From Chlorobiaceae bacterium (GTDB lineage Bacteria > Bacteroidota > Chlorobiia > Chlorobiales > Chlorobiaceae), in NCBI GenBank assembly GCA_013334865.1, contig JAAXWS010000003.1:1-64000 (forward strand): 64,000 nt of DNA. Reading direction: 5' to 3'. Under the pieces are notes generated by a model, which made no database searches, had not been told where the DNA came from, and worked only from the letters and a program-made list of their open reading frames with translations. This document shows, piece after piece, positions 1 to 40,364 of the stretch; position 1 is the stretch's first letter, and every line of letters starts with the position of its first letter. The position numbers were made by a program, and so were the translations under genes.

Positions 1-123
1 CAATGCCATGGCGTTACCGGGTACCAGAAGGTGCCTTAGCCGAGGCTTGAGCCGTGTGCGGTGAAAGTCGCATGCACGGTTCTTAGGGGACGGTAGCGCA
101 GCAATGCGCTGCCGTTACCCGAC
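1..123 (+). mobile_element. 3' end of a group II intron (domains V and VI)
   Basis: Positions 49-82 form a 34-nt hairpin with the hallmarks of group II intron domain V: it opens GAGCCGT, closes ACGGTTC, carries the AGC catalytic triad and has a GAAA-type tetraloop near 62-66. A second hairpin at about 91-113 occupies the place of domain VI. Coding sequence of a HipA-like protein resumes right after about position 123. The reverse-transcriptase ORF and the 5' end would lie left of the window. The exact splice boundary is inferred, because domain VI here is almost fully paired and its branch-point A is not obvious. Confidence 0.85.
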
Positions 124-9570: not shown

Positions 9571-9706
9571 TGATTGACCTCCAGAGTTTTTTCAGGTTTT
9601 CAATTACAAACAAAATGAGAGACAGTTCGCGGGAGGTCTGCCTCAGAGCGCGCAAGTGTCGTGTCCGGTTCAGTCTTCCCGGAGAACCCCTGTTGAAGAT
9701 TGGGGT

Positions 9707-12316: not shown

Positions 12317-12318
12317 AC

Positions 12319-13731: not shown

Positions 13732-13758
13732 ATTGTCTGGACTCTCGGTGATTGCCGG

Positions 13759-14634
13759 TTAAATTGCTTCCATCTTCTGTACGACGCCGGTCTCGACCTC
13801 GAATATCCTGTCACCCCACTTCCTCGCCCATTTCTTGAGCTCAGGGCCGTTCAATGGCTTCGGGATCACCGAATCGTTGTTTTCGTCGATATACCTGGCG
13901 AGTTTACGGTATACCTCCGCCTGTTCCGACTCCGGCAGGGCCTCGATGACGGTCTTGCCGTACAGTTCACTCTGGGCAACCGTGATGGACCTTGGCACGT
14001 AACCGATCACCGGCACGCCGCTCTCTTCCGCGAAGTCATGGATCAAGGCCTTCGAATATGAGGCCTGGATGCTGTTGGCGATCACGCCGCCAAGCCGTGC
14101 ACCGCCGGAGGGGGCGTACTTGTTGATCGCCTTGAAAAGGTTGTTTGCCGCGAAAACGGCCATGAAGTCCGATGAAGTCACCACAAACGCCCTGTCAGCG
14201 ATGCCATCACGGATGGGAACGGCGAAGCCGCCGCATACCACGTCACCGAGCACGTCGTAGAGCACGAAGTCAGGCTTGTACTCTTCGAATACCTTCAGGT
14301 CCTGCAACAGCTCGACGGCTGCGTTGATGCCGCGCCCCGCGCAGCCGACGCCCGGCACCGGACCGCCGGCCTCGATGCAGAGGACGCCGCCAAAGCCGAC
14401 TGCGGAGATATCCTCAAGCCTGACCTTGCTCTGCTCCCTGAGCGTGTCGAGCACGGTCGGCAGGTCGTTGCCGCCCCGCAGGATGGTCGTCGAGTCGCTT
14501 TTCGGGTCGCACCCGACCTGGATGACCCGGTATCCGGCCTCCGCCAAGGCCGCACTGATATTCGATGTTGTGGTGGACTTGCCGATTCCGCCCTTTCCGT
14601 AAATGGCAATATGTTTGCCCTGCTTTTCGCTCAT
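13759..14634 (-). CDS. Nitrogenase reductase-like ATPase (NifH/BchL/CfbC superfamily)
   Basis: The 291-residue protein has the P-loop GKGGIGKST (residues 13-21) and the two cysteines that ligate the [4Fe-4S] cluster between subunits: Cys98 in GVGCAGRGI and Cys134 in DVVCGGFA. GCDPKSDST and LYDVLGDVVCGGFA are close to NifH, though it is separated from true NifH by its partners. It would pass electrons with ATP hydrolysis to the NifDK-like complex encoded next. The start at 14634 has AAGGAA at a suitable distance; an in-frame extension to 14751 has no family support. No nifB, nifE or nifN is seen nearby. Confidence 0.9.
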   Translation of the reverse strand: MSEKQGKHIAIYGKGGIGKSTTTSNISAALAEAGYRVIQVGCDPKSDSTTILRGGNDLPTVLDTLREQSKVRLEDISAVGFGGVLCIEAGGPVPGVGCAGRGINAAVELLQDLKVFEEYKPDFVLYDVLGDVVCGGFAVPIRDGIADRAFVVTSSDFMAVFAANNLFKAINKYAPSGGARLGGVIANSIQASYSKALIHDFAEESGVPVIGYVPRSITVAQSELYGKTVIEALPESEQAEVYRKLARYIDENNDSVIPKPLNGPELKKWARKWGDRIFEVETGVVQKMEAI

Positions 14635-15613: not shown

Positions 15614-16825
15614 TCAGACAGCTTCGACCGCCTGGGCCTCTCTGGCGAACACCGGTAGCGTCTCGTCCTCGATCCTGTAGATATCGTGGATCGGAGTGAT
15701 CGGCGCCGCGTAGCAGTCGTAGATCTGGTCATAGGTGAATCCGCTCTTCCTGAAGATACCCGCGACCTTCTTGTAGAGATCGATATGCCATTCCGGCTCC
15801 GGAGAACGATGGCCTTCAAGGGCGGAACCGGGATTAGGGTTCCAGCTCGTCGCGAAGCAGGCGACACCCTTCGATGCGAGGTACTCGATGCCTTCGAGGG
15901 TCGAATCCTTCGGTTCGATACCAGCCACGATGTTGGACCGCACTCGTCCTTTTCCAAAAACCTCTGCTTCATACTCCAGCGTCCTCACCCAGTGGTCATA
16001 TCCGCCGGACTCGAGATCCTTGCCGGGGCAGATAGCCCGGAAAAGGTTCTTGTCCCAGATCTCGATATTGGTTGCCACCGTGCGGAAACCGGCCTCCTTG
16101 TACTTGTCGATGATGCTCAGGTCAAGGGGGGCACCGATCACCGCGGTTCCGTTGAAATCATCCAGTCCTGTATGTTGCCTGATTGCATCGGCGACGTCGA
16201 GGTAGTACTCGACCTCGCGCCGCTCTGCCACGAAACCGCCGGTAAGGGTGATGTGGCGTGCGCCATCCTCCCGGTATGCCGCGGCAACGGCTTCGCCGAT
16301 CTGGTGCGGGTATTTCCAGCCGATGCCTTCGATCTCGCCGTAGGTATTTTTTGTAGCGTTGATGTTGCAGAATTTGCAGTCGCGTCCTTTTTCCTTGAAA
16401 GCGCACTCATTGCTGTAAGCGGTAAGTATCGCCCCTTCCTGGGTGTAGAGGGCCAGGGTGTTCAGCCTCACCCCGTCCGAGGTTTTGAGGCCGTAATATT
16501 TCGGACGTTCAACGAAATCGACCGGGAATATGACCTGATCCCTGTGGGCAAGGTAATAGACACCGTTTTCGTAGATAAAGGAGTATGGTGACCTGCGATC
16601 CCACTTCAAGCCATAGGTCAACCCATGGGGGGAACGGAAGAAGGCGGGAAACTGGAACCCGACATGGGACTCATGGTCGCCTTCAAAAAGGCAGTGGATC
16701 TCTTCCTGGTATTTCCCGCCCAGGTCGAGGTGCTTGAAAATGCGGGGATCGAAATTGATGCCCTCGACGCCGGTAATGACTTTGAGTTCAAGTTCCCGGT
16801 ACAGCTTTTCCTTCAATGTGCTCAT
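15614..16825 (-). CDS. Radical SAM protein with CX8CX2C motif (paralog B, tandem array)
   Basis: The 403-residue protein has cysteines at 141, 150 and 153 (CAFKEKGRDCKFC). TLTGGFVAERREVEYY is the SAM-binding strand, and TNIEIWDKNLFRAICPGKD fits the following substrate/SAM region of biotin-synthase-like enzymes. It is one of three consecutive paralogs of identical length (403), probably more than 75% identical by eye. The start at 16825 (MSTLKEKLYREL) matches the starts of the other two. The array lies between the SsuB-like ATPase and the SDR. Tandem copies may form a hetero-oligomer or act on related substrates; the reaction is unknown. Confidence 0.82.
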   Translation of the reverse strand: MSTLKEKLYRELELKVITGVEGINFDPRIFKHLDLGGKYQEEIHCLFEGDHESHVGFQFPAFFRSPHGLTYGLKWDRRSPYSFIYENGVYYLAHRDQVIFPVDFVERPKYYGLKTSDGVRLNTLALYTQEGAILTAYSNECAFKEKGRDCKFCNINATKNTYGEIEGIGWKYPHQIGEAVAAAYREDGARHITLTGGFVAERREVEYYLDVADAIRQHTGLDDFNGTAVIGAPLDLSIIDKYKEAGFRTVATNIEIWDKNLFRAICPGKDLESGGYDHWVRTLEYEAEVFGKGRVRSNIVAGIEPKDSTLEGIEYLASKGVACFATSWNPNPGSALEGHRSPEPEWHIDLYKKVAGIFRKSGFTYDQIYDCYAAPITPIHDIYRIEDETLPVFAREAQAVEAV

Positions 16826-16924
16826 GATTTTATCTTTTCTGATTAATGTTGCTGATGTCCTGTAGTTTCTGCGCCTGAAATTATCCGGTGCCTGCGCTTT
16901 CTGGCATGTCAAAGATCGATTTGC

Positions 16925-18136
16925 TCAGACTGCCTCGACGGCCTCAGCCTCTTCCCTGAAAATCGGCAGAGTCTCATCTTCGATCCTGTAGATATCGTGA
17001 ATGACGGTTGTCGGCGTTGCGTAGCAGTCATAGATTTCGTCATAGGTGAAACCATGTCTTCTGTAGATGGCCGCAATTTTCTTGAAGAGATCGAAATGCC
17101 ATTCCGGCTCAGGTGAGCGGTGCCCCTCCAGTGCGGAACCGGGATTCGGATTCCAACTGGTCGCAAAGCAGATGACGCCTTTGGATGCGAGGTATTCGAT
17201 CCCCTCAAGGGAAGAATCCTTCGGTTCGAGGCCGGCCACGATGTTCGAGCGCACCTTGCCCCTGCCGAATACCTCAGCCTCGTATTCAAGCGTCTTCACC
17301 CAGTGATCCCAGCCACCGGACTCGATATCCTTTCCGGGGCAGATCGCCCTGAAAATGTTTCTGTCCCAGATCTCGATGTTGGTGGCGATAGTACGGTAAC
17401 CAGCCTCCTTGTACTTGTCGATGATGCTCAGGTCGTGTGGGGCACCGACGCATGCCGTGCCGTTAAAATCATCAAGCCCGGTGTATTGCCTGATGGAATC
17501 GGCCACATCGAGGTAATACTCCACCTCTCGCCTCTCGGCCACGAAACCGCCTGTCAGGGTCACGTGACGGGCACCGTCTTCCCGGTATGCGGCTGCAACC
17601 GCCTCACCGATCTGGTGCGGATATTTCCACCCGATGCCTTCCACCTCACCGTAGGTTCGGCTTGTGGCGTTGATGTTGCAGAATTTGCAGTCACGGCCAC
17701 TCTCTTTGAATGCGCACTCATTGCTGTACGGAACAAGCAGGGTCTGATCCCCGGAGTACAGGGCGAGGGTGTTCATCCTGACGCCGTCCGAGGTTTTCAA
17801 TCCGTAATAATTGGGGCGCTCCGGAAGTTGGATAGGGAAAATAACCTGCCCTTTATGGGCGAGATAAATAACACCGTTTTCCTTGATCAGGGAATACTGG
17901 GACCGTCGATCCCACTTCAGGGGGAAGGCAAACCCGCTGGGGGAATAGAACCCGGCTGGATGCTGGATGCCGACATGAGACTCATGGTCCAGTTCGAAAA
18001 GGCAATGAACCTCTTCCTGGTATTTCACGCCGATATCCAGATGATCGAAGATGCGGTGGTCGAAATTGATGCCCTCGACACCAGTAATGATTTTCAGTTC
18101 GAGTTCCCGGTACAGTTTGTCTTTGATGTTGCTCAT
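16925..18136 (-). CDS. Radical SAM protein with CX8CX2C motif (paralog C, tandem array)
   Basis: The middle of three 403-residue paralogs has the same CX8CX2C triad (CAFKESGRDCKFC) and the same TLTGGFVAERREVEYY block. It differs from B and D in several conserved-looking positions: ACVGAPHDLSII replaces AVIGAPLDLSII, and LVPYSNECAF replaces the TAYSNECAF of the others. These differences may mark a different substrate pocket. The start at 18136 (MSNIKDKLYREL) parallels its neighbours. About 100 nt separate it from each neighbouring paralog, long for a tight operon but with no clear terminator. Confidence 0.82.
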   Translation of the reverse strand: MSNIKDKLYRELELKIITGVEGINFDHRIFDHLDIGVKYQEEVHCLFELDHESHVGIQHPAGFYSPSGFAFPLKWDRRSQYSLIKENGVIYLAHKGQVIFPIQLPERPNYYGLKTSDGVRMNTLALYSGDQTLLVPYSNECAFKESGRDCKFCNINATSRTYGEVEGIGWKYPHQIGEAVAAAYREDGARHVTLTGGFVAERREVEYYLDVADSIRQYTGLDDFNGTACVGAPHDLSIIDKYKEAGYRTIATNIEIWDRNIFRAICPGKDIESGGWDHWVKTLEYEAEVFGRGKVRSNIVAGLEPKDSSLEGIEYLASKGVICFATSWNPNPGSALEGHRSPEPEWHFDLFKKIAAIYRRHGFTYDEIYDCYATPTTVIHDIYRIEDETLPIFREEAEAVEAV

Positions 18137-18234
18137 GATCTTATCCTTTCTGATTCGCTTATTGATGTTCTGCATTTTCGGCGCCTAGAATTTTTCAGGG
18201 CCGGATGTTATGGTAATGTCAACGCACGACATGC

Positions 18235-19446
18235 TCAGGCAACCTCGACGGCATCAGCCTTTTTGCTGAAAATCGGCAGGGACTCGTCTTCGATCCGGTA
18301 AATGTCATGGATCGGCGTTATCGGGGCCGCATAGCAATCATAGATTTCGTCGAAGGTATATCCGTGCCTCCTGAAGATGCTAGCGACCTTCTTGTACAGG
18401 TCGATATGCCACTCCGGTTCAGGCGTGCGATGGCCTTCGAGCGCTGAACCCGGATTCGGGTTCCAGCTCGTCGCGAAGCAGATGACACCTTTGGAGGCAA
18501 GGTACTCGACGCCTTCCAGCGTGGAGTCCTTCGGCTCGATGCCGGCCACGATGTTCGAGCGCACCTTGCCCCTGCCGAATACCTCCGCCTCGTATTCGAG
18601 CGTCTTCACCCAGTGTTCCCAGCCACCGGACTCGAGGTCCTTTCCGGGGCAGATCGCCCTGAAGATGTGCTTGTCCCAGATCTCGATGTTCGTCGCTATG
18701 GTGCGGAACCCGGCTTCTTTGTACTTCTCGATGATGCTCAGGTCGAGAGGGGCGCCAATGACGGCGGTACCGTTGAAATCGTAAAGGCCGGTATGCTCGC
18801 GAATGGCATCGGCCACGTCCAGGTAATACTCGACCTCGCGCCGCTCGGCAACGAATCCCCCGGTAAGCGTGAAGTGCCGGGCGCCATCGAGTTTATAGGC
18901 GGCCGCCACCGTTTCACCGATCTGGTGCGGATATTTCCAGCCAATGCCTTCCGCTTCACCATAGGCACGGCTTGTGGCGTTGATGTTGCAGAATTTGCAG
19001 TCGCGCCCTTGCTCCTTGAAGGCGCACTCGTTACTGTACGCCGTCTGTATCGCTCCGTCCTGATTGTAGATCGCCAGCGTATTCATCCTTACCCCGTCCG
19101 AGGTCTTCAGGCCATAGTATCTGGGGCGCTTCGTGAACTCGACCGGAAAGATCACCTCGCCCTTGTAGGCCAGGTAATACACGCCATACTCAAGGATGAA
19201 CGAATACTGCGACCTCCGGTCCCACTTCAGGAGATAGGTCAACCCGTGCGGAGAAAGGAACCAGGCGGGGAATTCGATGCCGACATGGTGTTCGTGGTCA
19301 GTTTCGAACAGGCAGTGGACCTCCTCCTGGTAGGTATCGCCAAGGTCGAGAGTCCGGAAAATGAGGGGATCGAAATTGACACCCTCGACAGCCGTAGCGA
19401 TTTTCAGTTCGAGTTCCCGGTACAGTGCTTCTTTGATCGTGCTCAT
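18235..19446 (-). CDS. Radical SAM protein with CX8CX2C motif (paralog D, tandem array)
   Basis: The first-transcribed of the three 403-residue tandem paralogs has the triad CAFKEQGRDCKFC and the same TLTGGFVAERREVEYYLDVADAI block. The N-terminal region with HCLFETDHEHHVGIEFP has extra His residues compared with B and C. The start is MSTIKEALYREL at 19446. It follows the SsuB-like ATPase by about 73 nt. Because all three are intact and keep every recognisable catalytic residue, recent duplication with retained function is more likely than decay. Confidence 0.82.
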   Translation of the reverse strand: MSTIKEALYRELELKIATAVEGVNFDPLIFRTLDLGDTYQEEVHCLFETDHEHHVGIEFPAWFLSPHGLTYLLKWDRRSQYSFILEYGVYYLAYKGEVIFPVEFTKRPRYYGLKTSDGVRMNTLAIYNQDGAIQTAYSNECAFKEQGRDCKFCNINATSRAYGEAEGIGWKYPHQIGETVAAAYKLDGARHFTLTGGFVAERREVEYYLDVADAIREHTGLYDFNGTAVIGAPLDLSIIEKYKEAGFRTIATNIEIWDKHIFRAICPGKDLESGGWEHWVKTLEYEAEVFGRGKVRSNIVAGIEPKDSTLEGVEYLASKGVICFATSWNPNPGSALEGHRTPEPEWHIDLYKKVASIFRRHGYTFDEIYDCYAAPITPIHDIYRIEDESLPIFSKKADAVEVA

Positions 19447-19519: not shown

Positions 19520-20296
19520 TCAAATGGCATAGGAAAAATGGTGTTCTGTGTGGAGCATGAACTCCTCAAGGACCTGCTCCTTCATGTCGGCGAAATCGTG
19601 GCCGGCCCTGTCACGCGGCCTTGGCAGGCTCACGTTGAGGACCTTCTGGATCCGGCCCGGCTTGGCTGACATCACCACGATCTTGTCGGAAAGGTAGAGG
19701 GCCTCCTCGACGTCGTGGGTCACCATGATCATCGTAATCTTCTCCTTTTCCCAGATCCGTTCCAGCTCATTGTGCATATACATCCTCGTCAGGGCGTCCA
19801 GCGCGCCGAGAGGCTCGTCGAGCAGGAGGATCTTGGGCTGGTTGACAAGTGCACGTGCGATGGCCGCACGTTGCGACATGCCGCCCGAGAGCTGGTACGG
19901 GTAACTTTTTTCAAACCCTTTCAGTCCCACGAGCTCGATGTGGCTGTCGACGATCTCCTTTTTCTCTTTTTCGGATTTACCGACGATCCCCAGCGCGATG
20001 TTCTTCTCGACGGTCAGCCACGGGAAGAGCCGATGGTCCTGGAAGACGATCCCGCGATCCAGGCTCGGACCGTTGAGCCGTTTACCGTCAAGCAGGATAT
20101 CTCCCTCATATTCGGATTCGAGTCCGACGATATGCCGCAAGAGCGTCGTCTTGCCGCAGCCACTCAGGCCGATGATCGAAACGAACTCCCCTGGCTTTAT
20201 GGAGAGGTTGATATTTTCAAGGACATGGACATCCCTCTCTTTTCCCGGATACGTCTTCCTGACGTTCCGTATTTCAAGCGCACCAGTGTTGCTCAT
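19520..20296 (-). CDS. ABC transporter ATP-binding protein, nitrate/sulfonate/taurine (SsuB/TauB) type
   Basis: This 258-residue ATPase has Walker A GLSGCGKTT, signature LSGGMSQRAAIARAL and Walker B LLLDEPLGALD, then VTHDVEEALYLSD, characteristic of the SsuB/TauB/NrtD group. It would energise import through the two permeases encoded just upstream; the stop of permease 2 (20302) is only 5 nt away. With the binding protein at 24938-25975 it completes an ABC importer. The family transports alkanesulfonates, taurine, nitrate, nitriles or thiamine precursors, so the substrate is open; sulfonate-like compounds fit the sulfatase-rich context. Confidence 0.9.
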   Translation of the reverse strand: MSNTGALEIRNVRKTYPGKERDVHVLENINLSIKPGEFVSIIGLSGCGKTTLLRHIVGLESEYEGDILLDGKRLNGPSLDRGIVFQDHRLFPWLTVEKNIALGIVGKSEKEKKEIVDSHIELVGLKGFEKSYPYQLSGGMSQRAAIARALVNQPKILLLDEPLGALDALTRMYMHNELERIWEKEKITMIMVTHDVEEALYLSDKIVVMSAKPGRIQKVLNVSLPRPRDRAGHDFADMKEQVLEEFMLHTEHHFSYAI

Positions 20297-20301
20297 ATAG
20301 G

Positions 20302-21090
20302 TTACCTTGCATTTTTCAGGGTTACTCTCCAGGAGGAGAAGACTCGTTCAAGCATCTTCATCAGGATGTTCATTGTGAACCCAACCAGGGCGATCGTAAC
20401 AATACAGACGATGACCAGGTCGTTTCTCGACATCTCGCGGCAGCCCCACATCATGTCTCCGATGCCACCTCCTGACGACATGAAGATCTCCGCGGCGACG
20501 ACAAGCAGCCATGATACGCTCAAACCTATCCTGAGGCCGGTGAGGGTAGAGGGAAAGCTGGACGGAAGAACGATCTTCAGGAATCTTTTCAGCTTGCCGA
20601 ACCGGAAAACCTCGCTGACCTCATGGTATTCGCGTTTGACGCACCTGATCCCCTCGACGGTATTGAGGGCGACGGGATAGCACGCCCCGATCGCGATAAA
20701 CAGCACCCGCGACGGCTCCCCGATGCTGACAAGCACAAGCAGTGGGGCGAACGCCGGGATGGGCACCTGGCGGACCGCGTTGAAAAGCGGGCTGATCAGT
20801 TTGTCCGCTGTCTTCGACAGGCCGATTAGGATCCCGAGGAGATATCCGAATGAAGCACCTGCCAGGAATCCCCTGCATACCCTGACGATGCTGATCAAGA
20901 GGTTCTCGGTGAACGATCCGTCTTTCCAGACCGCCAGGAACCCATTGAGGACATCAGAGGGCGATGGATAACTGTGCGGGTCGATCAAGTGGTATTTCGT
21001 AAGGAGATACCATGCAAGGAGCAGGCCGGCAGGGAGAAAACCACCTTCTGCAAACCTTGCAATGCGTGTTCTGTCAACTGTTACGTTCAT
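20302..21090 (-). CDS. ABC transporter permease, SsuC/TauC type (permease 2)
   Basis: This 262-residue inner-membrane protein has about six hydrophobic segments. The cytoplasmic EAA-like loop, GLRIGLSVSWLLVVAAEIFMS, is characteristic of sulfonate/nitrate/taurine permeases. The start at 21090 (MNVTVDRTRIARF) is 26 nt after the stop of permease 1; a longer open frame reaching 21558 overlaps that gene and is rejected. The family usually works as a homodimer, so the presence of a second, different permease gene suggests a heterodimer here. Confidence 0.88.
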   Translation of the reverse strand: MNVTVDRTRIARFAEGGFLPAGLLLAWYLLTKYHLIDPHSYPSPSDVLNGFLAVWKDGSFTENLLISIVRVCRGFLAGASFGYLLGILIGLSKTADKLISPLFNAVRQVPIPAFAPLLVLVSIGEPSRVLFIAIGACYPVALNTVEGIRCVKREYHEVSEVFRFGKLKRFLKIVLPSSFPSTLTGLRIGLSVSWLLVVAAEIFMSSGGGIGDMMWGCREMSRNDLVIVCIVTIALVGFTMNILMKMLERVFSSWRVTLKNAR

Positions 21091-21116
21091 AACTGATCCT
21101 GTCTCCGTTGTCGTGT

Positions 21117-21899
21117 TTACGAGTTCTTGCGGTGCCATTTCATCAGCGACCCCTCGAGCGCCTCGAGTCCCTTGTACATGACATACCCGGTAGTGCCGAC
21201 GGTAATGATTCCCACGTAGACGATATCCATCTGGAACAGCTGGCGGCCCCAGACGATCAGGTAGCCGATGCCTTCGCTGGACGCGATGAGCTCTGCGCCG
21301 ATCACGCTCATCCACGATATCCCGAGCGACAGTTTGATGCCCGTGAAAATCGAGGGCAGGGCAGCCGGGAACAGCACTTTCCGCATGAGCTTCACATGGT
21401 TGAACTCGAAGGTGCGGGCAACCTCGAGATAGGTCCTGGGAACACCGTGGATGCCCTCGAAGGTGTTCAGCAGCATCGGGAAGAACGCGGCAAGGGATAT
21501 GAACACGATCTTGAACTGCTCCTCGATGCCGAACAGGATCATCAGGAAGGGCACCCATCCGAAAATGGGGACCTGGTTCAACGCGATAAGCAGAGGAGCC
21601 AATACCCTCTCGATACGCGGAAAAAGCGCCATGAGCACCCCAAGCACGAACCCGGTGCCGGAGCCGATCGCAAAGCCGCCCAGGACCCTGACGATGCTGT
21701 ACCTGAGGTGGGTCAGGAGTTCGCCGGTTGAAAGCAGGTCGACAAGCATGGCAAAGATCCTGTGAGGCGGGACGATGATCTGGGAAGGAAGGAATTCACT
21801 TGTTCCGACCAACTCCATGGCAATGAGCAGGAACAGCGGCACAAGAAGTCCCAGGAACAGCGTAGAGATTTTGTTTTTGTCTGGTGAAAGCATACTCAA
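21117..21899 (-). CDS. ABC transporter permease, SsuC/TauC type (permease 1)
   Basis: The 260-residue membrane protein has the same topology as permease 2. Its EAA-like loop reads GIKLSLGISWMSVIGAELIA, and QVPIFGWVPFLMILFGI parallels RQVPIPAFAPLLVLVSIG in permease 2. It overlaps the upstream MFS gene by 4 nt (ATGA), which implies translational coupling of an MFS permease with an ABC importer, an unusual arrangement. It probably pairs with permease 2 in one importer. Confidence 0.88.
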   Translation of the reverse strand: MSMLSPDKNKISTLFLGLLVPLFLLIAMELVGTSEFLPSQIIVPPHRIFAMLVDLLSTGELLTHLRYSIVRVLGGFAIGSGTGFVLGVLMALFPRIERVLAPLLIALNQVPIFGWVPFLMILFGIEEQFKIVFISLAAFFPMLLNTFEGIHGVPRTYLEVARTFEFNHVKLMRKVLFPAALPSIFTGIKLSLGISWMSVIGAELIASSEGIGYLIVWGRQLFQMDIVYVGIITVGTTGYVMYKGLEALEGSLMKWHRKNS

Positions 21900-23131
21900 T
21901 ACTCCTCCTTGATGATCTGATTTACTACCGCCGATTCATCGAAGGATTCCTGAATGGCCCGATTGTTCATGAAAAGCCTGACTCCCAGCAGGAGGTATAA
22001 AGGGATGAAGACCGGGAATACGGCCCAGATGCCGGCCCACTGCCCGGCAAGGCCGCCGAGCACCGGTCCGATGATCGAACCCGACATGGTGAACAGGGCA
22101 AAAATGCCGGCCGTCTTCCCCTTGCCGGAGCTTGCCCGGGAAAGCCTCGTGACATTGACCAGGTTGAACATCCCCAGCCCAAGCCCGATAAGCGCCGCGC
22201 CTCCGACGAGGTACGCAGGATGGCTGTGGACCGACAGGGATGCAAGACCTGAAACGACGGCCAGGATACCTGCCAGATAGAACCTGCGCTGACCGAGGCT
22301 CGACAGGAGGCGCCAGAGTAATAACAGGGCTCCGATATAGACGAACCCTTCCAGGGACACCAGCATCGATGCGCTCTCTGTAGCGAAGTGGAAGACCCTG
22401 ATAGCCGTGACGACGACGAATGAGTTGAAGCAGGAGAAGGTTCCCATCGCGAGTGCCTCGGCAATCGAAGCCTCCAGCACCTCTTCATCCCTAAATAGTG
22501 TCCTGATATCGGAGATCCTTTCCCGGAACGATGCATTGCTCGGCTGCTCTACCCTGGATGTGTTACTCTCGGGGAAGATCAGGATCGCGGCTAACAGCAG
22601 GCACACGCAGGTGGCGCTGATGACGTAAAAAGCTACCGGAATGCCCCATTGGCGGCTGATAGCCGCGCCGACGAGCGGCCCAAGGAAGACAAAACCGAAC
22701 GAATGCGCTCCCCGTTGCCATCCTGCCTTGTCTTGGCCGGCGTTTTTCAGCAGCTCGAGAAAGACGCTGGTAATCGGGATGAACCTGAACGCCATGAAAA
22801 AACCGATGGTAGCCACATAGGCGCACAGGACAGTCGATGTAGTGACGACGAAAGGAAACAGCAGGTAAAGCAGGGCGCTTGAAGCCGCGCCGAACAGGAA
22901 GACGCTCCTCGGGCCGAGGTGATCCACCAGCATACCGACAGGCAGCACGGTGAAAAGCATGCCGATGCCCTGTACCCCGCCGATGAAACCGATCTGGGAT
23001 GTGGTCGCCTGGAGGTTGACGGCGAACAGCGTCGTCGCTATCTGCCCCATGCCCAGGCTCAGCCCCATAAGGATGGAGATGGCCACGAACTGCCCGAAAA
23101 CGCTGTTGCTAACGGTTATCCTCATGCTCAT
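21896..23131 (-). CDS. Major facilitator superfamily transporter
   Basis: The 411-residue protein has about 12 hydrophobic helices. Helix 2-3 carries GMLVDHLGPRSVFLFG, the MFS signature loop (D-x2-G-x-R), and the central loop around residues 190-215 is charged. It resembles drug/solute efflux MFS proteins. It is embedded by 4-nt overlaps with the PPOX gene upstream and the ABC permease downstream, so it is part of the same translationally coupled unit. It may export a reaction product while the ABC importer brings in substrate; the direction of transport is inferred. Confidence 0.85.
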   Translation of the reverse strand: MSMRITVSNSVFGQFVAISILMGLSLGMGQIATTLFAVNLQATTSQIGFIGGVQGIGMLFTVLPVGMLVDHLGPRSVFLFGAASSALLYLLFPFVVTTSTVLCAYVATIGFFMAFRFIPITSVFLELLKNAGQDKAGWQRGAHSFGFVFLGPLVGAAISRQWGIPVAFYVISATCVCLLLAAILIFPESNTSRVEQPSNASFRERISDIRTLFRDEEVLEASIAEALAMGTFSCFNSFVVVTAIRVFHFATESASMLVSLEGFVYIGALLLLWRLLSSLGQRRFYLAGILAVVSGLASLSVHSHPAYLVGGAALIGLGLGMFNLVNVTRLSRASSGKGKTAGIFALFTMSGSIIGPVLGGLAGQWAGIWAVFPVFIPLYLLLGVRLFMNNRAIQESFDESAVVNQIIKEEY

Positions 23132-23598
23132 TCGGCTGCCTTCAGCACGTCCAGATGGTTAGACGAGTGGCCCCGTCGGCCAGCCTCTTCGGCGGCGCGA
23201 TGTTCAGGGGATTCGTTGCGGATTTCTTCGGGAACGATCACCCATACTCCGGCGATGTCCGCCTTCGGGCCGCGCTTTTCGCGAGCCCTATCGATCATGG
23301 TCCTGAAAACGGAACCGGTGATCAGATATTGGTAAGGGCGTCCTTTCAGCTGGTAGCTGACGAACCCCTTGGTCACATTGATGGAAACCCTCCGGTCGTA
23401 CCAGATGCTCCGGACGAGGTTCCTGTTGCTCTGCGTGCCTTCGAAGCCTTCCGCGAAGACAATGGTCTCGCCGTCCAGCGAGGTCAGGGAGCCTTTCGTC
23501 ACGAGATGCGGCGTGCCATCCTCGTCGATCGTGCCGACCACCTTGCCGCTGGAGGGGTCCCTGAGCAACTGGAGGAGTTCTTCCGGTAGTTGTGCCAT
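23128..23598 (-). CDS. Small PPOX-family flavoprotein, copy 3
   Basis: This 156-residue protein begins AQLPEELLQLLRDPSSGKVV and contains IVFAEGFEGTQSNRNLV and YQLKGRPYQYLITGS, matching the PPOX split-barrel family and especially copy 1 at 2713-3120. It overlaps the MFS gene by 4 nt and starts 21 nt after radical SAM paralog E, so the three are cotranslated. A flavin (FMN) cofactor is likely from the family; it might relay electrons or process a product of the radical SAM enzyme, which is inference only. Confidence 0.72.
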   Translation of the reverse strand: MAQLPEELLQLLRDPSSGKVVGTIDEDGTPHLVTKGSLTSLDGETIVFAEGFEGTQSNRNLVRSIWYDRRVSINVTKGFVSYQLKGRPYQYLITGSVFRTMIDRAREKRGPKADIAGVWVIVPEEIRNESPEHRAAEEAGRRGHSSNHLDVLKAAE

Positions 23599-23619: not shown

Positions 23620-24870
23620 TTAGTTCAGACGTTCCAGATCGCTGTCGCCGTGGTTGCCGCAGTGCTTGAAGTCGTCGTTGGCCGAAGAGAGCCCGTAGTT
23701 GCGCCTGATCTCCACAAGCCCCCTGACGAGCCTTACATAGTATTCGAGCGGCGGTTGCTTCTGCCCTCCGAGTCCGGTTCCTTTCCAGGGTGTCCAGACA
23801 AGGCTGAGGTAAACCACCCCGTTCTTCGCAAAAAACTCGCATGCCTCGAAGTTCGAATCGAGCGCCTGTTCGATGCTGGTGAATCCGTGCGGCCGGGCAA
23901 ACTCGACACCGGCGACGAAATTGGTGTAGACGTTGCCTTTGCCGAACACCTCGACGGCGTGGAGGGCGCTCCGGATCCAGTAATCCCTCCCGAACCACTT
24001 CTCCTTGCCGCTGCATATCCATTTGAAGAGCTCCCGATCCCAGACTTCGATGTCCGGGCAATAGGAAGAGAGCCCGGTCTCGTCGTACAGCCGCTTCACC
24101 TGCCTCTTGGTATAGGCCGGCGCGATCAGCTGGCTCGGGAAGCGCCTCGTGGCGAAGTTCCGGCCGATCGCCTGGAGCACCTCGATATAGCGTCCGACCT
24201 CTTTTTCGAACGGTATGTCGCCCGAATAGTCGGTGCCTGCGGTCAGGTTGATCTGCGAATAGCGCCCCGGTTCCTTCAGCGCCTCGCGGACGGTCTCGTA
24301 GATATCCTCCGGATCGACCACTTTCGCATAGGCATCGCCGGCAAGCTGCTTCTGCTGCTTGATGTCCGTGAAAAAGGCGCAGAACTTGCACTGGTCCTTC
24401 GTATCCCAGTAATGGCAATAACGGTAGGGATAGATGTCAAGCCGCTGCGGCCGGGACCAGGCGATCGACTCCATCGGCACGCCCCTGCTGGTTGTTTTTC
24501 CGTAGAACTCGGGCCTCGGAGAGAAATCGACCTCGTCAATGAAGCGGCCGTCGTCAAGAATGCGGAATCGGCCGTCGACATAGTCGATCGTATAGGGGTT
24601 CTCGAACTGGTTCGGTATCGGACTGGCGATCACGGTCGTTCCGTCCCTGAGCAGCAGCGGGCCTGGGAACGGTCGATGGTTCGGATCCTTTCCCGAAAAC
24701 GCCGTTTGGTCCGGGCCTCGGTAATAGGGTTCGCTGGTCGCTTCGGCGGTCGCCTCGGTGAAGGCGATGCCCCGGCGCTGCAGGTCCAGCTTGAGAATGA
24801 TCGACCTGGGAACGTCCGGATAGAGTTCAGCAAGGACCGAAAGGCTTTTTTCTTCGACAGCGATCGTCAT
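23620..24870 (-). CDS. Radical SAM protein with CX8CX2C motif (paralog E)
   Basis: The 416-residue protein has its triad at 152, 161 and 164 (CHYWDTKDQCKFC). INLTAGTDYSGD stands in the SAM-binding strand position, where B-D have TLTGGFV, so the GGE-like motif is altered. PDIEVWDRELFKWICSGKEK and YTNFVAGVEFARPHGF follow as in paralog A. It shares the N-terminal domain of paralog A, making A and E one subfamily and B-D another. It lies 67 nt after the binding-protein gene. Its placement with importer genes rather than with the nitrogenase-like genes suggests a role early in substrate processing. Confidence 0.8.
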   Translation of the reverse strand: MTIAVEEKSLSVLAELYPDVPRSIILKLDLQRRGIAFTEATAEATSEPYYRGPDQTAFSGKDPNHRPFPGPLLLRDGTTVIASPIPNQFENPYTIDYVDGRFRILDDGRFIDEVDFSPRPEFYGKTTSRGVPMESIAWSRPQRLDIYPYRYCHYWDTKDQCKFCAFFTDIKQQKQLAGDAYAKVVDPEDIYETVREALKEPGRYSQINLTAGTDYSGDIPFEKEVGRYIEVLQAIGRNFATRRFPSQLIAPAYTKRQVKRLYDETGLSSYCPDIEVWDRELFKWICSGKEKWFGRDYWIRSALHAVEVFGKGNVYTNFVAGVEFARPHGFTSIEQALDSNFEACEFFAKNGVVYLSLVWTPWKGTGLGGQKQPPLEYYVRLVRGLVEIRRNYGLSSANDDFKHCGNHGDSDLERLN

Positions 24871-24937: not shown

Positions 24938-25975
24938 TCACTTCCAGTAGCCTTCGAGCTTCAGATCCTTCAGGGCCGCATTGATGTAACTCCTGTCGAT
25001 CCAGGTATTGAGATCGACCGTCTGCCTGATCAGGCCGTTCTTTTTGGTATAATCGATCGCTCCGGCAAAATGGTTTACCAGCGCAGGGTTGATCGTGGGG
25101 TCGCTGATATCTTTCAGCAGACGCCCCTGGATGTCTTCGTTGAAATCACCCGGGGCAATGCCTGCCTTGGCAAAGATGTTGACAACCGCTCTACGATTGG
25201 ACTCTTCCGATCCCCATTTCGCAGCCTCGACATACCTCTTGACGAACCGTTTGGTGATGTCGGGGTAGGCATTGGCAAATTTTTCAGTGACAAACACGCC
25301 GCCGTAGACGCGGAAATCCTTGGAATAATCCTTGGTCGATCCGATGATCCTCACGATGCCCTGGTTACGCAAGGTAAAGAGGGAGTTGGTGCTGATGCCG
25401 GCATCAACGTCACCGGTTTTCAATGCCGCGTTAAGATCGGCTCCCGACAGGTTGTAGATCTTCACGTCGCTCTCTTTCAGGCCGTTGGCGGCAAGGATGC
25501 GGGCGAAAGCCAGCTGGAGGGCCGTTCCCTTGAAGACGCCGACTTTCTTGCCCTTGAGGTCTTTGATCGACCTGATCGGGGAACCGGCAGTTACCGCAAC
25601 GTAGTAGTCGGAGCCGTTGATCGAGTTGGCGATGAACTTCGTTTTCAGCCCCCCAGCCTTGCCGACAATGGCAGGAAGGTCGCCGATGAATGCGAAATCG
25701 AGCGTGTTGTTGGCCAGCGATTCGTTGACCGCAGGGCCGGCGCCCTTGAAGATGTTCCACTGGACCTCGATGCCGTCCTTCTTGAACTCCTCTTCGAGCA
25801 GTCCGAGGCCCTGCAACACGCCCGGTGTCCCCCAGCCGTATGGCTTACCAAAACCTCCCGAGTAGGCCGAGCCGACCCTGATGACCTTCGGCGCCGGTGC
25901 GGCGGCCTGGGCGGTATGCGCCCCTATGCCGATAAGGGACGCCACGGCAACTATTTTTGTAAACAGACGTTTCAT
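24938..25975 (-). CDS. Periplasmic substrate-binding protein, SsuA/TauA type
   Basis: The 345-residue protein has a Sec signal peptide (MKRLFTKIVAVASLIGIGAH, cleavage near AQA-AAP). KGAGPAVNESLANNTLDFAF and LKGKKVGVFKGTALQ are typical of the nitrate/sulfonate/taurine-binding family. It would deliver the substrate to the importer made of the permeases at 20302-21899 and the ATPase at 19520. It is the second gene after the leader region, directly following the porin by 33 nt, so outer- and inner-membrane uptake are coexpressed. Confidence 0.9.
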   Translation of the reverse strand: MKRLFTKIVAVASLIGIGAHTAQAAAPAPKVIRVGSAYSGGFGKPYGWGTPGVLQGLGLLEEEFKKDGIEVQWNIFKGAGPAVNESLANNTLDFAFIGDLPAIVGKAGGLKTKFIANSINGSDYYVAVTAGSPIRSIKDLKGKKVGVFKGTALQLAFARILAANGLKESDVKIYNLSGADLNAALKTGDVDAGISTNSLFTLRNQGIVRIIGSTKDYSKDFRVYGGVFVTEKFANAYPDITKRFVKRYVEAAKWGSEESNRRAVVNIFAKAGIAPGDFNEDIQGRLLKDISDPTINPALVNHFAGAIDYTKKNGLIRQTVDLNTWIDRSYINAALKDLKLEGYWK

Positions 25976-27430: not shown

Positions 27431-27454
27431 AAAAAAAACGATACCCTGGTATCG
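27431..27454 (-). terminator. Intrinsic terminator in the porin operon leader (candidate attenuator)
   Basis: On the minus strand a perfect 7-bp stem (CGATACC / GGTATCG, 2-nt loop, 27454-27439) is followed by eight T residues (27438-27431). It lies only ~46 nt upstream of the porin start and ~600 nt after the maturase stop. It could end the upstream sulfatase transcript, but its position after a short translated leader suggests conditional termination. Two more hairpins (CGGAA/TTCCG near 27480-27495 and ACGGC/GCCGT near 27459-27472) lie between the leader ORF and the terminator. Confidence 0.7.
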
Positions 27455-27517
27455 TGAAACGGCCCTGCCGTGAAGATTCGGAAATCCATTCCGACCTCTT
27501 GCGCATGACTATTCCAC

Positions 27518-27571
27518 TTACAATCTCAATGTCATACACCGACATCGCATGACCGAATCAAACGCGACCAT
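27518..27571 (-). CDS. Putative Cys/Met leader peptide (attenuator uORF)
   Basis: A 17-codon ORF reads MVAFDSVMRCRCMTLRL, with the strong ribosome site GGGAGG 4 nt upstream of ATG. Two Cys and two internal Met lie within six residues (MRCRCM). Its stop is about 64 nt before an intrinsic terminator that itself sits ~46 nt before the porin ATG. The arrangement is that of amino-acid attenuators such as those of trp or his, but tuned to sulfur amino acids. Known parallels are the cysteine-responsive small uORFs of some actinobacteria and rhizobia. Translation is not proven, and a specific antiterminator pairing was not identified. Confidence 0.5.
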   Translation of the reverse strand: MVAFDSVMRCRCMTLRL

Positions 27572-28063
27572 ATCGCCTCCCGTTAATCGTTTGTAAAATT
27601 ATTTTATGAATAATAATTACCGACCATAGAGCACATTCCAACAAAACATCACCATTCATATTCCGGGTCCAGCAAACGCTGCCCAAACAGCATCATCAGC
27701 ATAAATTCGAACGAAAAAAAATCTTTTTTTCCAACCAAAACAAACATTCAAATAAAAATACCAAAAAGAGGGTAGGGAAATTCATGCGGCCTCAAATAAC
27801 AGCACGCCATCGCTTCCGGATACAAAAAAGAGAATATTCCATTTAATTCATATCCCCTCTTCTTGGTATTTCTCATACCCAATTAGAGCTAACCGAGAAA
27901 TAACATATTCACCAGCAAGCCCTATTATTATAATAATTTACGTTCACCGTTGCCCCCACCGTCGCGAAGATCGCAACGACATCTCCACAGCACCACATCC
28001 GGGTTATTCCAGATTGCCCGCAACAAGTGATGCATGGCATATCAGCTCATACCGGGCATAACA

Positions 28064-31042: not shown

Positions 31043-33103
31043 TCAGTTACCCCCATCGGGATCGCTGCGGAATACTGATGCCAGCTTCTCGGCGATACCC
31101 GAAGCCAGCGAACGTAAATGTCGTTGCGTCGATGCCTCTTGCTGGATCGAAGGCCGTGGAGTGACAATCGGAAAGGATGGATCGACCTCATCCAGCAGGC
31201 TGAAAAACTCAACCAGCTTGAGCGGGTTTCCCTTGATCTTGATCAGTCCGGCCCGCCATGACCTCATAAAATCGCTCTCTTTCAGCAAGAGTGCCCGGAA
31301 CGCATCCTGACTCAGCCGGACGGTGGCATCCGGTTTGTCTGCGCGATATCCTGCGATATGGTTGATAGTCGACCGCTCCAATGTCAACAGGTGATCCTGC
31401 TCAAGATCGGTAAAATACCAGTTGATCGTGATCCGCTTTCCGGCAGCACGACCGGCGTTAAGCCTTATGGCAAGGGCATCGAAGAGATTTCCGGCGTCGA
31501 GCGCCCGCTGAAGGTCGAAGGATTTCGCAAGAGGCAGCTGAGCGGGCTGTCCGCGCCTCAACTCGTTCGCACCCTGCAGGTAAGCATTTCGCCATGTGGC
31601 AGACTCGGACTGATACCCCAGTTGCTCAAAGGCTGATGCCAGGAGTTCAAGGGCTTCCTGATTGTGCGGTTCTGCATAAACCAGTTTGCCAAGAACCTCA
31701 GCGACCCAGCGGTATTCGCCCAGTTCGTAGTCCTTTGCCGCTCGTTGCAGGACCGCTACGCTGCCGCCGGCATAGTCGATCCACTTCCGGGCGGAATCAG
31801 TCGGCGTCAAAGGATCAAGGTTTGCCGGATTGCCGTCATACCACCCCAGATACCTTTGGTAGATGGCCTTGACGTTATGCTTGACCGCGCCATACAATCC
31901 TCTAACAGACCACTCCTGTTCCAGTTCCTCGGGCAAAGTGATGATTTCAGCTATTTCCGGTGCGGTGTAGCCCTGATTGGCCAGTTTGAGCGTCTGATCG
32001 TGAAGATGTTTGTAAATATCCCGCTGCTTGCCCAGGTAGTCCACGATGTTACCGTTCTCCCAAATCGGCCAGTGATGCTGAGCGAATACGACCTCGGCTT
32101 CTCGTCCGAACTTTTCGAGTGCCGCGTTCAGGTATTCGGCCCAGGCCTTTGCGTCGCGAACCTTGGCACCACGCAGCGGGAGGAGATTGTGCTGCGTGTG
32201 GGTTGCATTTTCCGCCAGGTTCAACGCTTTCCACTGTGGCAAATAGAGGTGGAGTTCGGCCGGGGCCTCCGTCTCAGGAGTCAACTGAAATACGATCTCG
32301 ACGCCATCGAACGAGTGGGTCTCGAGCTCTTCGGCGATCAACTGCGTGGGAGCTATAAGGCTGATGATGCCCCCTCTCGACGCTTTCCCCAGGCCGGCAT
32401 CGATGGTACCCTTCGGCCCTATCGGCAAAACCTGCCCGAATTGGTAAAGAGAGCGGCGCGCCATCGCCGGTCCTGCAAGCACATTTTCGCTTACCGTCTC
32501 TTCGACAAATCCCGCCGGTGCCACAATGCGCACCTCACCGCTTCGCACCTGCTCTTCGCTTACCAATCCCCGTACGCCACCGAAATGATCGGCATGGCTG
32601 TGGGTATAGATGATGGTATTGATCGGCTTGCGGGGCCGGTACCGATAATAGAGCTCCAGAGCGGCCTTTGCGGATTCAACCGTCGTCAGGGCATCGATGA
32701 TGATCAGACCGGTGTCACCCTCGATGAAGGTGATGTTGGCGATATCCAGGCCGCGGACCTGATAGATGCGATCTACCACCTGAAACAGACCGTTGATGCG
32801 GTTCAGGCGGGCCTGACGCCATAAACTCGGGTTTACGGTATCAGGAGCGGTCTCGTCGGACAGAAAGCCATACTCGCCCAGGTCCCAGACAACAGCACCA
32901 TTTTCCTGACGAATAATGCCATCCTCTAGTGTACCAAGAAAGCCCCGTGTAGCATTCTTGAAATCCCTCGTATCAGAAAAGGGAAGCTTTGTAATCCATT
33001 CCTGATTGGAAGAGCCTGTCTTGGTTGATGCCGAAAGGCCTACGGCCGTATAACGTTCTGCGTGAGGGCACCCGCAGTTTTCATGATGGTCGAGTGTCGC
33101 CAT
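31043..33103 (-). CDS. Type III linear alkyl sulfatase (SdsA1/YjcS-like metallo-beta-lactamase)
   Basis: The 686-residue protein has a metallo-beta-lactamase core with THSHADHFGG (His168, His170, Asp172, His173), a central helical dimerisation region and a C-terminal SCP2-like domain (about 560-660) containing NWYFTDLEQDHLLTLERSTI. Such enzymes cleave primary or secondary alkyl sulfates, such as dodecyl sulfate, into alcohol and sulfate using two Zn ions. Family members are often secreted, but no signal peptide is visible here (MATLDHHENCGCPHAERY). It begins the cargo transcription unit and precedes the arylsulfatase by 66 nt. Confidence 0.9.
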   Translation of the reverse strand: MATLDHHENCGCPHAERYTAVGLSASTKTGSSNQEWITKLPFSDTRDFKNATRGFLGTLEDGIIRQENGAVVWDLGEYGFLSDETAPDTVNPSLWRQARLNRINGLFQVVDRIYQVRGLDIANITFIEGDTGLIIIDALTTVESAKAALELYYRYRPRKPINTIIYTHSHADHFGGVRGLVSEEQVRSGEVRIVAPAGFVEETVSENVLAGPAMARRSLYQFGQVLPIGPKGTIDAGLGKASRGGIISLIAPTQLIAEELETHSFDGVEIVFQLTPETEAPAELHLYLPQWKALNLAENATHTQHNLLPLRGAKVRDAKAWAEYLNAALEKFGREAEVVFAQHHWPIWENGNIVDYLGKQRDIYKHLHDQTLKLANQGYTAPEIAEIITLPEELEQEWSVRGLYGAVKHNVKAIYQRYLGWYDGNPANLDPLTPTDSARKWIDYAGGSVAVLQRAAKDYELGEYRWVAEVLGKLVYAEPHNQEALELLASAFEQLGYQSESATWRNAYLQGANELRRGQPAQLPLAKSFDLQRALDAGNLFDALAIRLNAGRAAGKRITINWYFTDLEQDHLLTLERSTINHIAGYRADKPDATVRLSQDAFRALLLKESDFMRSWRAGLIKIKGNPLKLVEFFSLLDEVDPSFPIVTPRPSIQQEASTQRHLRSLASGIAEKLASVFRSDPDGGN

Positions 33104-34174
33104 AAATAGTGATCAAAAGGTTGCAATCAAGAATAAACGAAGATCTATGAAGTAAATGCATCCCTGATCATTTCGGCCACATGAGTCCGAATGATCGAGG
33201 ATATTTATGGGCTTTTCAATTATTGTCCAGCGTCATTATCCGCCACGATTACGCAGGGCGTCAGTCATCACTCAAACACCGATGCGTTCGAGCGAATAGT
33301 CAAGAATTCATGGCCTCGTTTATGCCAAAGCTCCAGGCTGGCGATATAATGCCATTCACTCATAAAAACATACGGCCACCCCGATTTCCCATATGCTATG
33401 ATTGCCCGAATGCTGACAGTATATCCGTCTTGAACATAATGCGGTCTAATGGAAGGAAATAATACATTAAATCTCCGCAATGCGCAGCATCTACTATAAA
33501 AATACCTTTAAATAGGCATATCGGCTCATTGATACCGTTGCCTACGCCGGCCATCAAACCTCGGAATCCAGTCAACAAGGAATCCGACGCGCCCCACATT
33601 CATAAGGTTCGGCATCATCAGCACGCCATACTCGCGGGGTAAGCTCCCAGCAGTTAATAGGCGAATTTATCAAGCTTACGGTGTTATAATCCCGGTAATC
33701 GTCCCATAAAAAAACCCCCGACATAATATCGAGGGTCTGCTCTCTCTTTTCGTATCACAACCAATAAAAACATAAAAAACATGGCTTAATCCAACTTTAA
33801 ACCACGATTCATAATAACGAATAACAACACTCGCAACCATACCCCAATACCGGTATTTTTTCTCTAACCTGACATACCATAAATGACATCAATCAAAAGG
33901 CATATCCTTAGCACATCACGCAGAAGGGGTCAAACAAGCAGATGGCTTTAATCAACAAGCCACGCCAGACATTAATCATGATACATCTTATGACAAATAC
34001 CCGAAAAGAGGTGTTTTTCGGTTCACCATCAACAAAATAGGTCAAGCAGCCACATCACCGGGGACGGACATCTCTCCCGGAAGGATATCCATCACTTACG
34101 TAATCGGTTGTAATAGCACCCAACAAGACACCTGAACAGGTTTCCCATTATCCATAACATGGCAACAGAACAGA
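33104..34174. other. AT-rich spacer between cargo and island backbone
   Basis: No gene is supported in this 1.07 kb. Short open frames on both strands near 33181-33599 have no recognisable domain, no good ribosome site and amino-acid compositions expected of non-coding AT-rich DNA. The segment presumably carries the promoter of the sulfatase operon near its left end. A minus-strand terminator lies at 33708-33735. It also marks the border between the metabolic cargo and the mobile backbone. Confidence 0.55.
33708..33735 (-). terminator. Intrinsic terminator
   Basis: On the minus strand a 7-bp stem (CCCTCGA pairing TCGGGGG with one G-T pair, 33735-33715) is followed by seven T residues (33714-33708). 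It would end transcription arriving from the island-backbone genes at 34.2-38.0 kb before the sulfatase operon. Confidence 0.7.
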
Positions 34175-34465: not shown

Positions 34466-34778
34466 CCATATTAGCGCATAATATCTCCAACTCAGGGGGC
34501 TATTACCTCATAATCTCTCCTCATAACAACCTCCTCACCAAAACATCTTCTTTATTTATATCCAAGCAGAAAGATGTTCAATAACAAAAACCGGAGTAAA
34601 TATACCGGAACCATCAATTCGAAATGCTCATCAACGATCAGCGTATAACCTGTAAAATTATTGAATTGAAAGCTCCAGCACCATACCCTGATACAGGTAT
34701 TTAACATACCGTAATACAACAGCAGTCCAGGTTGCCAGGACAAGTACATCATCAACAAGGCTTACTATTGCCACCAAA

Positions 34779-39519: not shown

Positions 39520-39691
<172 letters not shown>

Positions 39692-39703
39692 AAATTTCTG
39701 GTG

Positions 39704-39786
39704 CGGAGGATGAGGGACTCGAACCCCCATGGGCGCAAACCCGGCAGTTTTCAAGACTGCTGCCTTACCAATTAGGCTAATCCTCC
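39704..39786 (-). tRNA. tRNA-Ser (anticodon TGA)
   Basis: The acceptor GGAGGAT pairs with ATCCTCC; G discriminator; the anticodon loop CTTGAAA reads TGA (decodes UCA and relatives); a variable arm of about 15 nt follows. The canonical CCA is not directly encoded after the discriminator (CACCA follows). It is 12 nt upstream of tRNA-Ser(GCT) on the same strand, so the two are probably cotranscribed. Confidence 0.92.
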
Positions 39787-39916
39787 AGCTATGTAAAGAA
39801 CAGAAAAGAAGATAGTGATTCCCTCAAAAATAGCCAGCAAAAAATAAGTTTCTGCTTTTCCCCGACGTGTCGGGATCGGGTGGCAATTGCCGATACAGCT
39901 TTTCTTCCCTTTTCCC

Positions 39917-40274
39917 TGGCGGAGAGGGAGGGATTGATTCGCTTCGCTCACCCCAAGGGGCTTCCTCGCTTCGCTCGTCGTCTAAACTTCCTCCGGAAGT
40001 TTTCGAACCCTCTTGTCGGGTTCGACCCCACCCCTTCTCGTTTCGGCAATCCTGAAACCATTACAGCCACAGGCTTTCCGAAAATCCAGTCTTCTGGCGG
40101 AGAGGGAGGGATTGATTCGCTTCGCTCACCCCAAGGGGCTTCCTCGCTTCGCTCGTCGTCTAAACTTCCTCCGGAAGTTTTCGAACCCTCTTGTCGGGTT
40201 CGAACCCCACCCCTTCTCGTTTCGGCAATCCTGAAACCATTACAGCCACAGGCTTTCCGAAAATCCAGTCTTCT
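39917..40274 (-). repeat. Two tandem 178/180-bp repeats, each starting with the tRNA-Ser 3' end
   Basis: Unit 1 spans 39917-40094 and unit 2 spans 40095-40274; they differ only by two single-base insertions. Each begins with the same 19 nt as the 3' end of tRNA-Ser(GGA) and (GCT) (CCA, acceptor and part of the T arm, read on the minus strand). After 66 nt of unrelated, hairpin-rich sequence each resumes with CGAACCCTC, which follows directly in the true tRNA. The array ends exactly where the intact tRNA-Ser(GGA) begins. The units look like duplicated, interrupted tRNA 3' halves and may be old attachment sites. Confidence 0.85.
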
Positions 40275-40364
40275 GGCGGAGAGGGAGGGATTCGAACCCT
40301 CGAGGGCTGTTACACCCTACCCGCTTTCCAGGCGAGCGCACTAGACCAACTATGCGACCTCTCC
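40275..40364 (-). tRNA. tRNA-Ser (anticodon GGA)
   Basis: This is a 90-nt class II tRNA. The acceptor GGAGAGG pairs with CCTCTCC, with G discriminator and encoded CCA. The anticodon loop CTGGAAA reads GGA (decodes UCC/UCU), and there is a long variable arm. Its 3'-terminal ~23 nt are identical to those of tRNA-Ser(GCT), so both could serve the same integrase. Confidence 0.94.

Follow-up and report, generated by a model that had tools for sequence, protein, structure and literature searches.

A cysteine-codon leader before a porin and organosulfur gene run in a Chlorobiaceae bacterium as a probable transcription attenuator

In the Chlorobiaceae DNA analysed here (a stretch of 64 kb, hereafter the window), a porin gene is preceded by a very short open reading frame and a terminator. 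Do these elements form an attenuator, and which amino acid would it sense? The original prediction proposed a sulfur-amino-acid attenuator responding to cysteine or methionine, in which GGGAGG, a short ORF, two hairpins, a 7-bp terminator and the porin follow one another. This layout was found to be exact on the minus strand:

27576-27581, minus strand: Shine-Dalgarno sequence GGGAGG of the leader ORF, read from the sequence; GGAGG is also present in the sister locus L024/L143
27518-27571, minus strand: leader ORF MVAFDSVMRCRCMTLRL, ATG at 27571, 17 codons, TAA at 27520-27518
27478-27494, minus strand: hairpin TCGGAA/TTCCGA, 3' of the stop codon; same fold with a different sequence in L144
27459-27471, minus strand: hairpin ACGGC/GCCGT, directly 5' of the terminator
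27431-27455, minus strand: intrinsic terminator with a 7-bp stem, a 4-nt loop and a T tract; near-identical terminator in L144
26009-27385, minus strand: porin (Porin_O_P), predicted to be the first gene controlled

The two Cys codons of the leader are both TGT (27544-27542 and 27538-27536, minus strand). The terminator stem ACGATAC/GTATCGT spans 27455-27438 and leads into eight consecutive T including the last stem base, and 45 nt separate the T tract from the GTG start of the porin (27385). Both strands of the window (128 strand-kb) were scanned with a fixed rule, i.e. at least two Cys in four codons, a terminator no more than 120 nt from the stop codon and a gene start within 300 nt. The leader was the sole match; three matches were obtained in the window when the downstream-gene condition was omitted. 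The 142-nt leader RNA folds 3.4 standard deviations better than its shuffles (z -3.4). Judged alone, with two Cys codons in three, the window leader is a weak case, yet it is rescued by the homologous loci.

The window porin shares 78-80% identity with the porin of a Chlorobiaceae MAG assigned to the same genus, and the porin is present at 28 loci in 27 of the 98 genomes of the order. Conservation of leader and terminator in related loci had been put forward with the original prediction as a check, and it was borne out: a Cys-cluster ORF with a terminator behind it was identified upstream of the porin at 22 of the 28 loci against 1 of 560 dinucleotide-shuffled regions. Runs of at least three Cys in four codons occur at 18 of the 28 loci against none of the 560 shuffles. 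The leaders of about 20 other porin loci mostly show CCC or CCCC forms. Examples of the porin leaders are MVLTVVFKRIKRCCCFFVDYGDIKVFAVSDI (with AAGGAG), MSKIFCCCCLEYYDKKGFIPI and MLNICCCCRCKKYSDINVLVPM. The closest to that of the window are MSTLSCFIRCRFLTLTCKT (L021/L144) and MRACCWQRCHIWGHLLCDVLSCFMI (L024/L143). The terminator is nearly the same in the window and L021/L144, and the remaining homologues use other terminators. A leader is absent from the porin of G019, and a clear Shine-Dalgarno sequence is missing from most sister-genus leaders. Cys codons in the porin leaders are mainly TGT (71 versus 16 TGC); the long ORFs of the window favor TGC (223 versus 53 TGT). Tandem Cys leaders were observed upstream of the porin at L015, L016, L018, L022, L017, L029 and L034, where a CCC leader, usually with a terminator behind it, lies further upstream and another Cys ORF (e.g. 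RCCAW) nearer the porin start. This second ORF often has no terminator of its own and possibly acts on translation.

Regarding the signal, the cysteine part of the predicted Cys/Met attenuator stood, on the comparative evidence of Cys-codon runs, terminator, family-level antiterminator and sulfur genes, and the methionine part fell. The homologous leaders lack the Met codons of MRCRCM, and runs of three in four codons before the terminator amount to 43 for Cys and 0 for Met in the regulon loci, so Met sensing was rejected. A riboswitch or other known Rfam element was rejected too, since neither the window leader nor those of its relatives matched any Rfam family at the gathering threshold or above. 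A simple pattern scan across the order (CGATGTTGYTGY) was dropped as too unspecific.

A covariance model built from 19 porin leaders was run against the order (98 genomes) and retrieved about 80 places at E<1e-4. Single genomes have several of them, and these often sit together on the same contig. Among 296 phylum-wide genomes, the matches were confined to one genus-level group. They are partly selected for Cys, as the training set of the model consisted of Cys-bearing leaders, and draft MAG contigs dominate the sample. The model misses the divergent copy of the window itself, which was placed in the family by its position, its content and its sister loci. Nearly every readable match consists of a Cys ORF that starts with ATG and typically stops about 66 nt short of the end of the terminator, followed by a gene. 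An ATG lies upstream in the frame of the Cys run at 69 of 73 loci (6 and 19 for the other frames), and the tight stop-to-terminator distance is seen in the Cys-run frame only, which argues for translation of the leader. The porin survey (22/28) and the frame test (69/73) are more independent tests than the model matches.

Attenuation by a stalled ribosome calls for an alternative to the terminator fold. When the terminator 3' arm was removed, the ORF tail tended to pair with what is left of the terminator (5' arm and loop), the small post-stop hairpin being enclosed. Over 39 dereplicated loci, ORF tails paired more strongly with their own terminator arms than with permuted ones (-10.1 versus -8.4 kcal/mol; 0 of 5000 permutations), which indicates covariation, dereplication removing relatedness only partly. 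Sequestration of the terminator arm was 0.63 with the ribosome at the Cys run versus 0.29 with the ribosome at the stop codon, the difference holding for 31 of 33 loci. Because chance pairing increases with the length of free RNA, shuffled ORF tails served as a control, and the stalled-state value still exceeded it at the family level (0.63 versus 0.50, p=1.4e-4). The antiterminator was not seen as one consensus helix by RNAalifold on a 75-row alignment, whereas the partner-permutation test did support the pairing.

The leaders are also preceded by an 18-bp operator, ATNCC-N8-GG(G/T)AT, perfect in 60 of 76 cases versus 1 of 1520 shuffles. Two sites precede the window leader:

27852-27869, minus strand: operator ATACC-N8-GGGAT, ATACCAAGAAGAGGGGAT, a perfect match to the operator of the 60 of 76 leaders
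27758-27775, minus strand: second operator-like site CTACCCTCTTTTTGGTAT, a 9/10 match

The first site has a half-site GGTAT just before it (27879-27875), as in relatives, and is probably located at the promoter from which the leader is transcribed. In L143 (ATACCATCTTTGTGGTAT) and L144 (ATACCGGATTAAGGGTAT), a perfect version of the second site is found about as far from the leader. The window holds four distinct perfect operators, all in the sulfur locus (27852-27869, 33502-33519, 33839-33856 and 34683-34700), and its operator strand matches number 7 against a shuffle mean of 0.81. Since the operator is conserved as much as the leader, control could be exerted there by a DNA-binding regulator, the leader merely setting basal read-through. 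Such a scheme leaves unexplained the in-frame Cys-codon runs and the covariation between ORF tail and terminator, and the genus-g1 metY loci L152, L154, L155, L156 and L170 have Cys leaders without the operator; as a full account it is unlikely. The equal conservation suggests that two layers of control probably exist, and the genus-g1 leaders indicate that they are separable.

Could the window element itself be a plain terminator behind a decayed or chance mini-ORF, the working attenuators being found only in relatives? It has two Cys codons only, one of which is not kept in L144, and a Cys cluster with a Shine-Dalgarno-like motif occurs in 3 of the 260 minus-strand ATG mini-ORFs of the window. 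For this copy alone, terminator-arm sequestration was 0.64 versus 0.54 in shuffles, which is not significant and makes the window antiterminator no more than putative. Against decay stand the agreement with L144 and L143 in position, Shine-Dalgarno sequence, hairpin order, terminator and operator, the single match of the fixed rule in the window and the stable fold of the leader RNA, which together make this explanation improbable. Most doubtful is a sensor consisting of the Cys-rich nascent peptide, e.g. a metal- or redox-binding motif arresting or releasing the ribosome independently of Cys-tRNA supply: clustered Cys (CCC, CxC, CCxC) could bind metal and Cys-rich uORFs responding to metals are known, but in the leaders neither the Cys spacing nor the flanking residues are fixed, apart from a frequent Arg-Cys; what they share is the number of clustered Cys codons, and they precede sulfur genes, not metal genes.

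The window leader is probably a ribosome-mediated transcription attenuator sensing cysteine supply and a divergent copy of a Chlorobiaceae-wide family. Comparison of the sequences shows the leader, its Cys run and frame, the terminator, the operator, the sulfur targets and, at the family level, antiterminator covariation; from these we infer translation, stalling, read-through and cysteine as the in vivo signal. Transcription would start upstream, near the conserved operator, and a ribosome would translate the short leader with its clustered Cys codons. When Cys-tRNA is plentiful, the ribosome reaching the stop codon would cover the ORF tail; the terminator could then fold, and transcription would stop short of the porin. 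When Cys-tRNA is short, the ribosome would stall at the Cys codons and the ORF tail would pair with the 5' half of the terminator hairpin, loop included. The terminator being blocked, RNA polymerase would continue into an operon for organosulfur uptake and C-S bond cleavage. Behind the porin, this operon comprises the following genes, whose putative functions were assigned by homology:

24938-25975, minus strand: SsuA-family sulfonate-type ABC substrate-binding protein (TIGR01728 above cut-off)
23620-24870, minus strand: variant radical-SAM protein (NF045502; same family behind other Cys leaders in relatives)
19520-23598, minus strand: PNPOx-like protein, MFS transporter, two ABC permeases and ABC ATPase (SsuBC/Sao type)
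15614-19446, minus strand: three more radical-SAM genes, one by PF04055 and two by evident sequence similarity
11009-14634, minus strand: MarH/MarD/MarK-like nitrogenase-like genes (PF00148, PF00142)
8128-10963, minus strand: radical-SAM gene and arylsulfotransferase-fold (ASST) protein, with which the uninterrupted same-strand run ends

The run from 27385 to 8128 contains about 17 genes in about 19 kb on the same strand, with no internal gap larger than about 175 nt. Control of the whole operon by the leader, as originally proposed, is plausible, the run presumably forming one transcript. The MarH-like protein is 87% identical to the product of a NifH-like gene found behind a Cys leader in G108, and among solved structures methylthio-alkane reductase (9D9U/9FMG) comes closest to the MarD-like protein. 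A second Cys-cluster ORF with a strong terminator (MSFMVCQVREKIPVLGYGCECCYSLL, 33714-33889, minus strand) lies about 600 nt upstream of an alkylsulfatase gene (31043-33103). It is a candidate only, because its 73% relative L148 has no leader and the perfect operator 33502-33519 is downstream of it. Elsewhere in the window, a group II intron piece (RF00029) is found at the edge (47-123, plus strand) and three tRNA genes at 39602-40364 (minus strand).

In relatives, the first genes behind the leaders are variant radical-SAM-like (16), porin (14), CoA-dehydratase-type activase followed by HGD-D/double-cubane-like proteins (8), NifH-like (7), sulfonate/taurine-type ABC ATPase (5), PNPOx-like (3), SDR (2), arylsulfotransferase-like (2) and double-cubane-like (1), together with a periplasmic adaptor-like lipoprotein (6) that was recognized by visual inspection. 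The closest solved structure to the NifH/NifD-like pair of relatives is again methylthio-alkane reductase (9FMG), identified as MarDK2H2 (PMC12552129). Along about 35 kb of L122 and L123 (G108:C4:73000-111000), five Cys-leader operons were observed, in which an activase and several HGD-D/double-cubane-like proteins adjoin sulfonate-type ABC transporters. In the genus of the window, DUF4395 and Cys/Met-metabolism PLP-enzyme genes are likewise preceded by Cys leaders with terminators (e.g. MNFRTDITPTMYPCCCDNGMMHCALKKNRFAWT), and two loci of this type, their leaders moderately rich in Cys, are present in the window genome. SAM riboswitches were detected near DUF4395-metY loci with Cys leaders (L152, 965-1118, minus strand; L155, 2333-2424, plus strand), so that one neighborhood may be under both kinds of sulfur-amino-acid sensor. 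As judged by homology, the controlled genes serve Cys supply, through sulfonate-type transport, Mar-like C-S cleavage and a Cys/Met PLP enzyme. A sulfur-starvation regulon of green sulfur bacteria seems likely, in which the poly-Cys leader attenuator and the common 18-bp operator would form a shared sensor for several operons per genome, nitrogenase-like C-S cleaving enzymes included, with tandem leaders in some cases and, in the lineage of the window, one leader heading the run of about 19 kb and 17 genes.

The nearest described system is uORFC-8-2, a predicted Cys-codon attenuator of cysS in Rhodobacterales with 145 copies, all before cysS (PMC8632094). Both have a uORF with clustered or tandem Cys codons, stems and an intrinsic terminator with a U run, and ribosome-mediated attenuation through Cys-tRNA is proposed for both. 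In contrast to the single gene served by uORFC-8-2 in Alphaproteobacteria, the leaders described here precede several different organosulfur-scavenging operons per genome, carry runs of three to four Cys and share an operator; with a Chlorobiaceae host and genes other than cysS, they are set apart by description. Cys-codon runs in a short ORF are also found upstream of actinobacterial cys operons, where leader peptides without obvious terminators were reported (PMC1262725), and in mycobacterial polycysteine leaderless sORFs, which are described as Cys-responsive and as acting on translation of downstream genes, with no intrinsic terminator in between (Canestrari 2020, as reviewed in PMC9031893). 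Unlike both, the Chlorobiaceae leaders have a strong intrinsic terminator and, at the family level, an antiterminator. A leaderless start at the window sORF is disfavored by the GGGAGG before the ORF and by the operators, which lie some 100 nt or more further upstream. A leader peptide rich in regulatory codons and the competition between antiterminator and terminator recall the classical trp/his/leu attenuators, from which the present ones differ by their amino acid, Cys, and by targets devoted mostly to uptake and scavenging rather than to biosynthesis. No description of such leaders in Chlorobi was found in the literature searched; the kind of mechanism is already known, but the Chlorobiaceae family, the scale of the regulon and its targets appear to be new.

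For the Chlorobiaceae, the classic sulfide-oxidising phototrophs, these leaders would provide a regulatory layer for cysteine and organosulfur limitation, with a Cys-codon attenuator serving as a regulon-wide sensor instead of controlling a single gene. The shared regulation also flags candidates for sulfur scavenging, namely variant radical-SAM proteins, double-cubane reductases with their activases, Mar-like nitrogenase relatives and porins.
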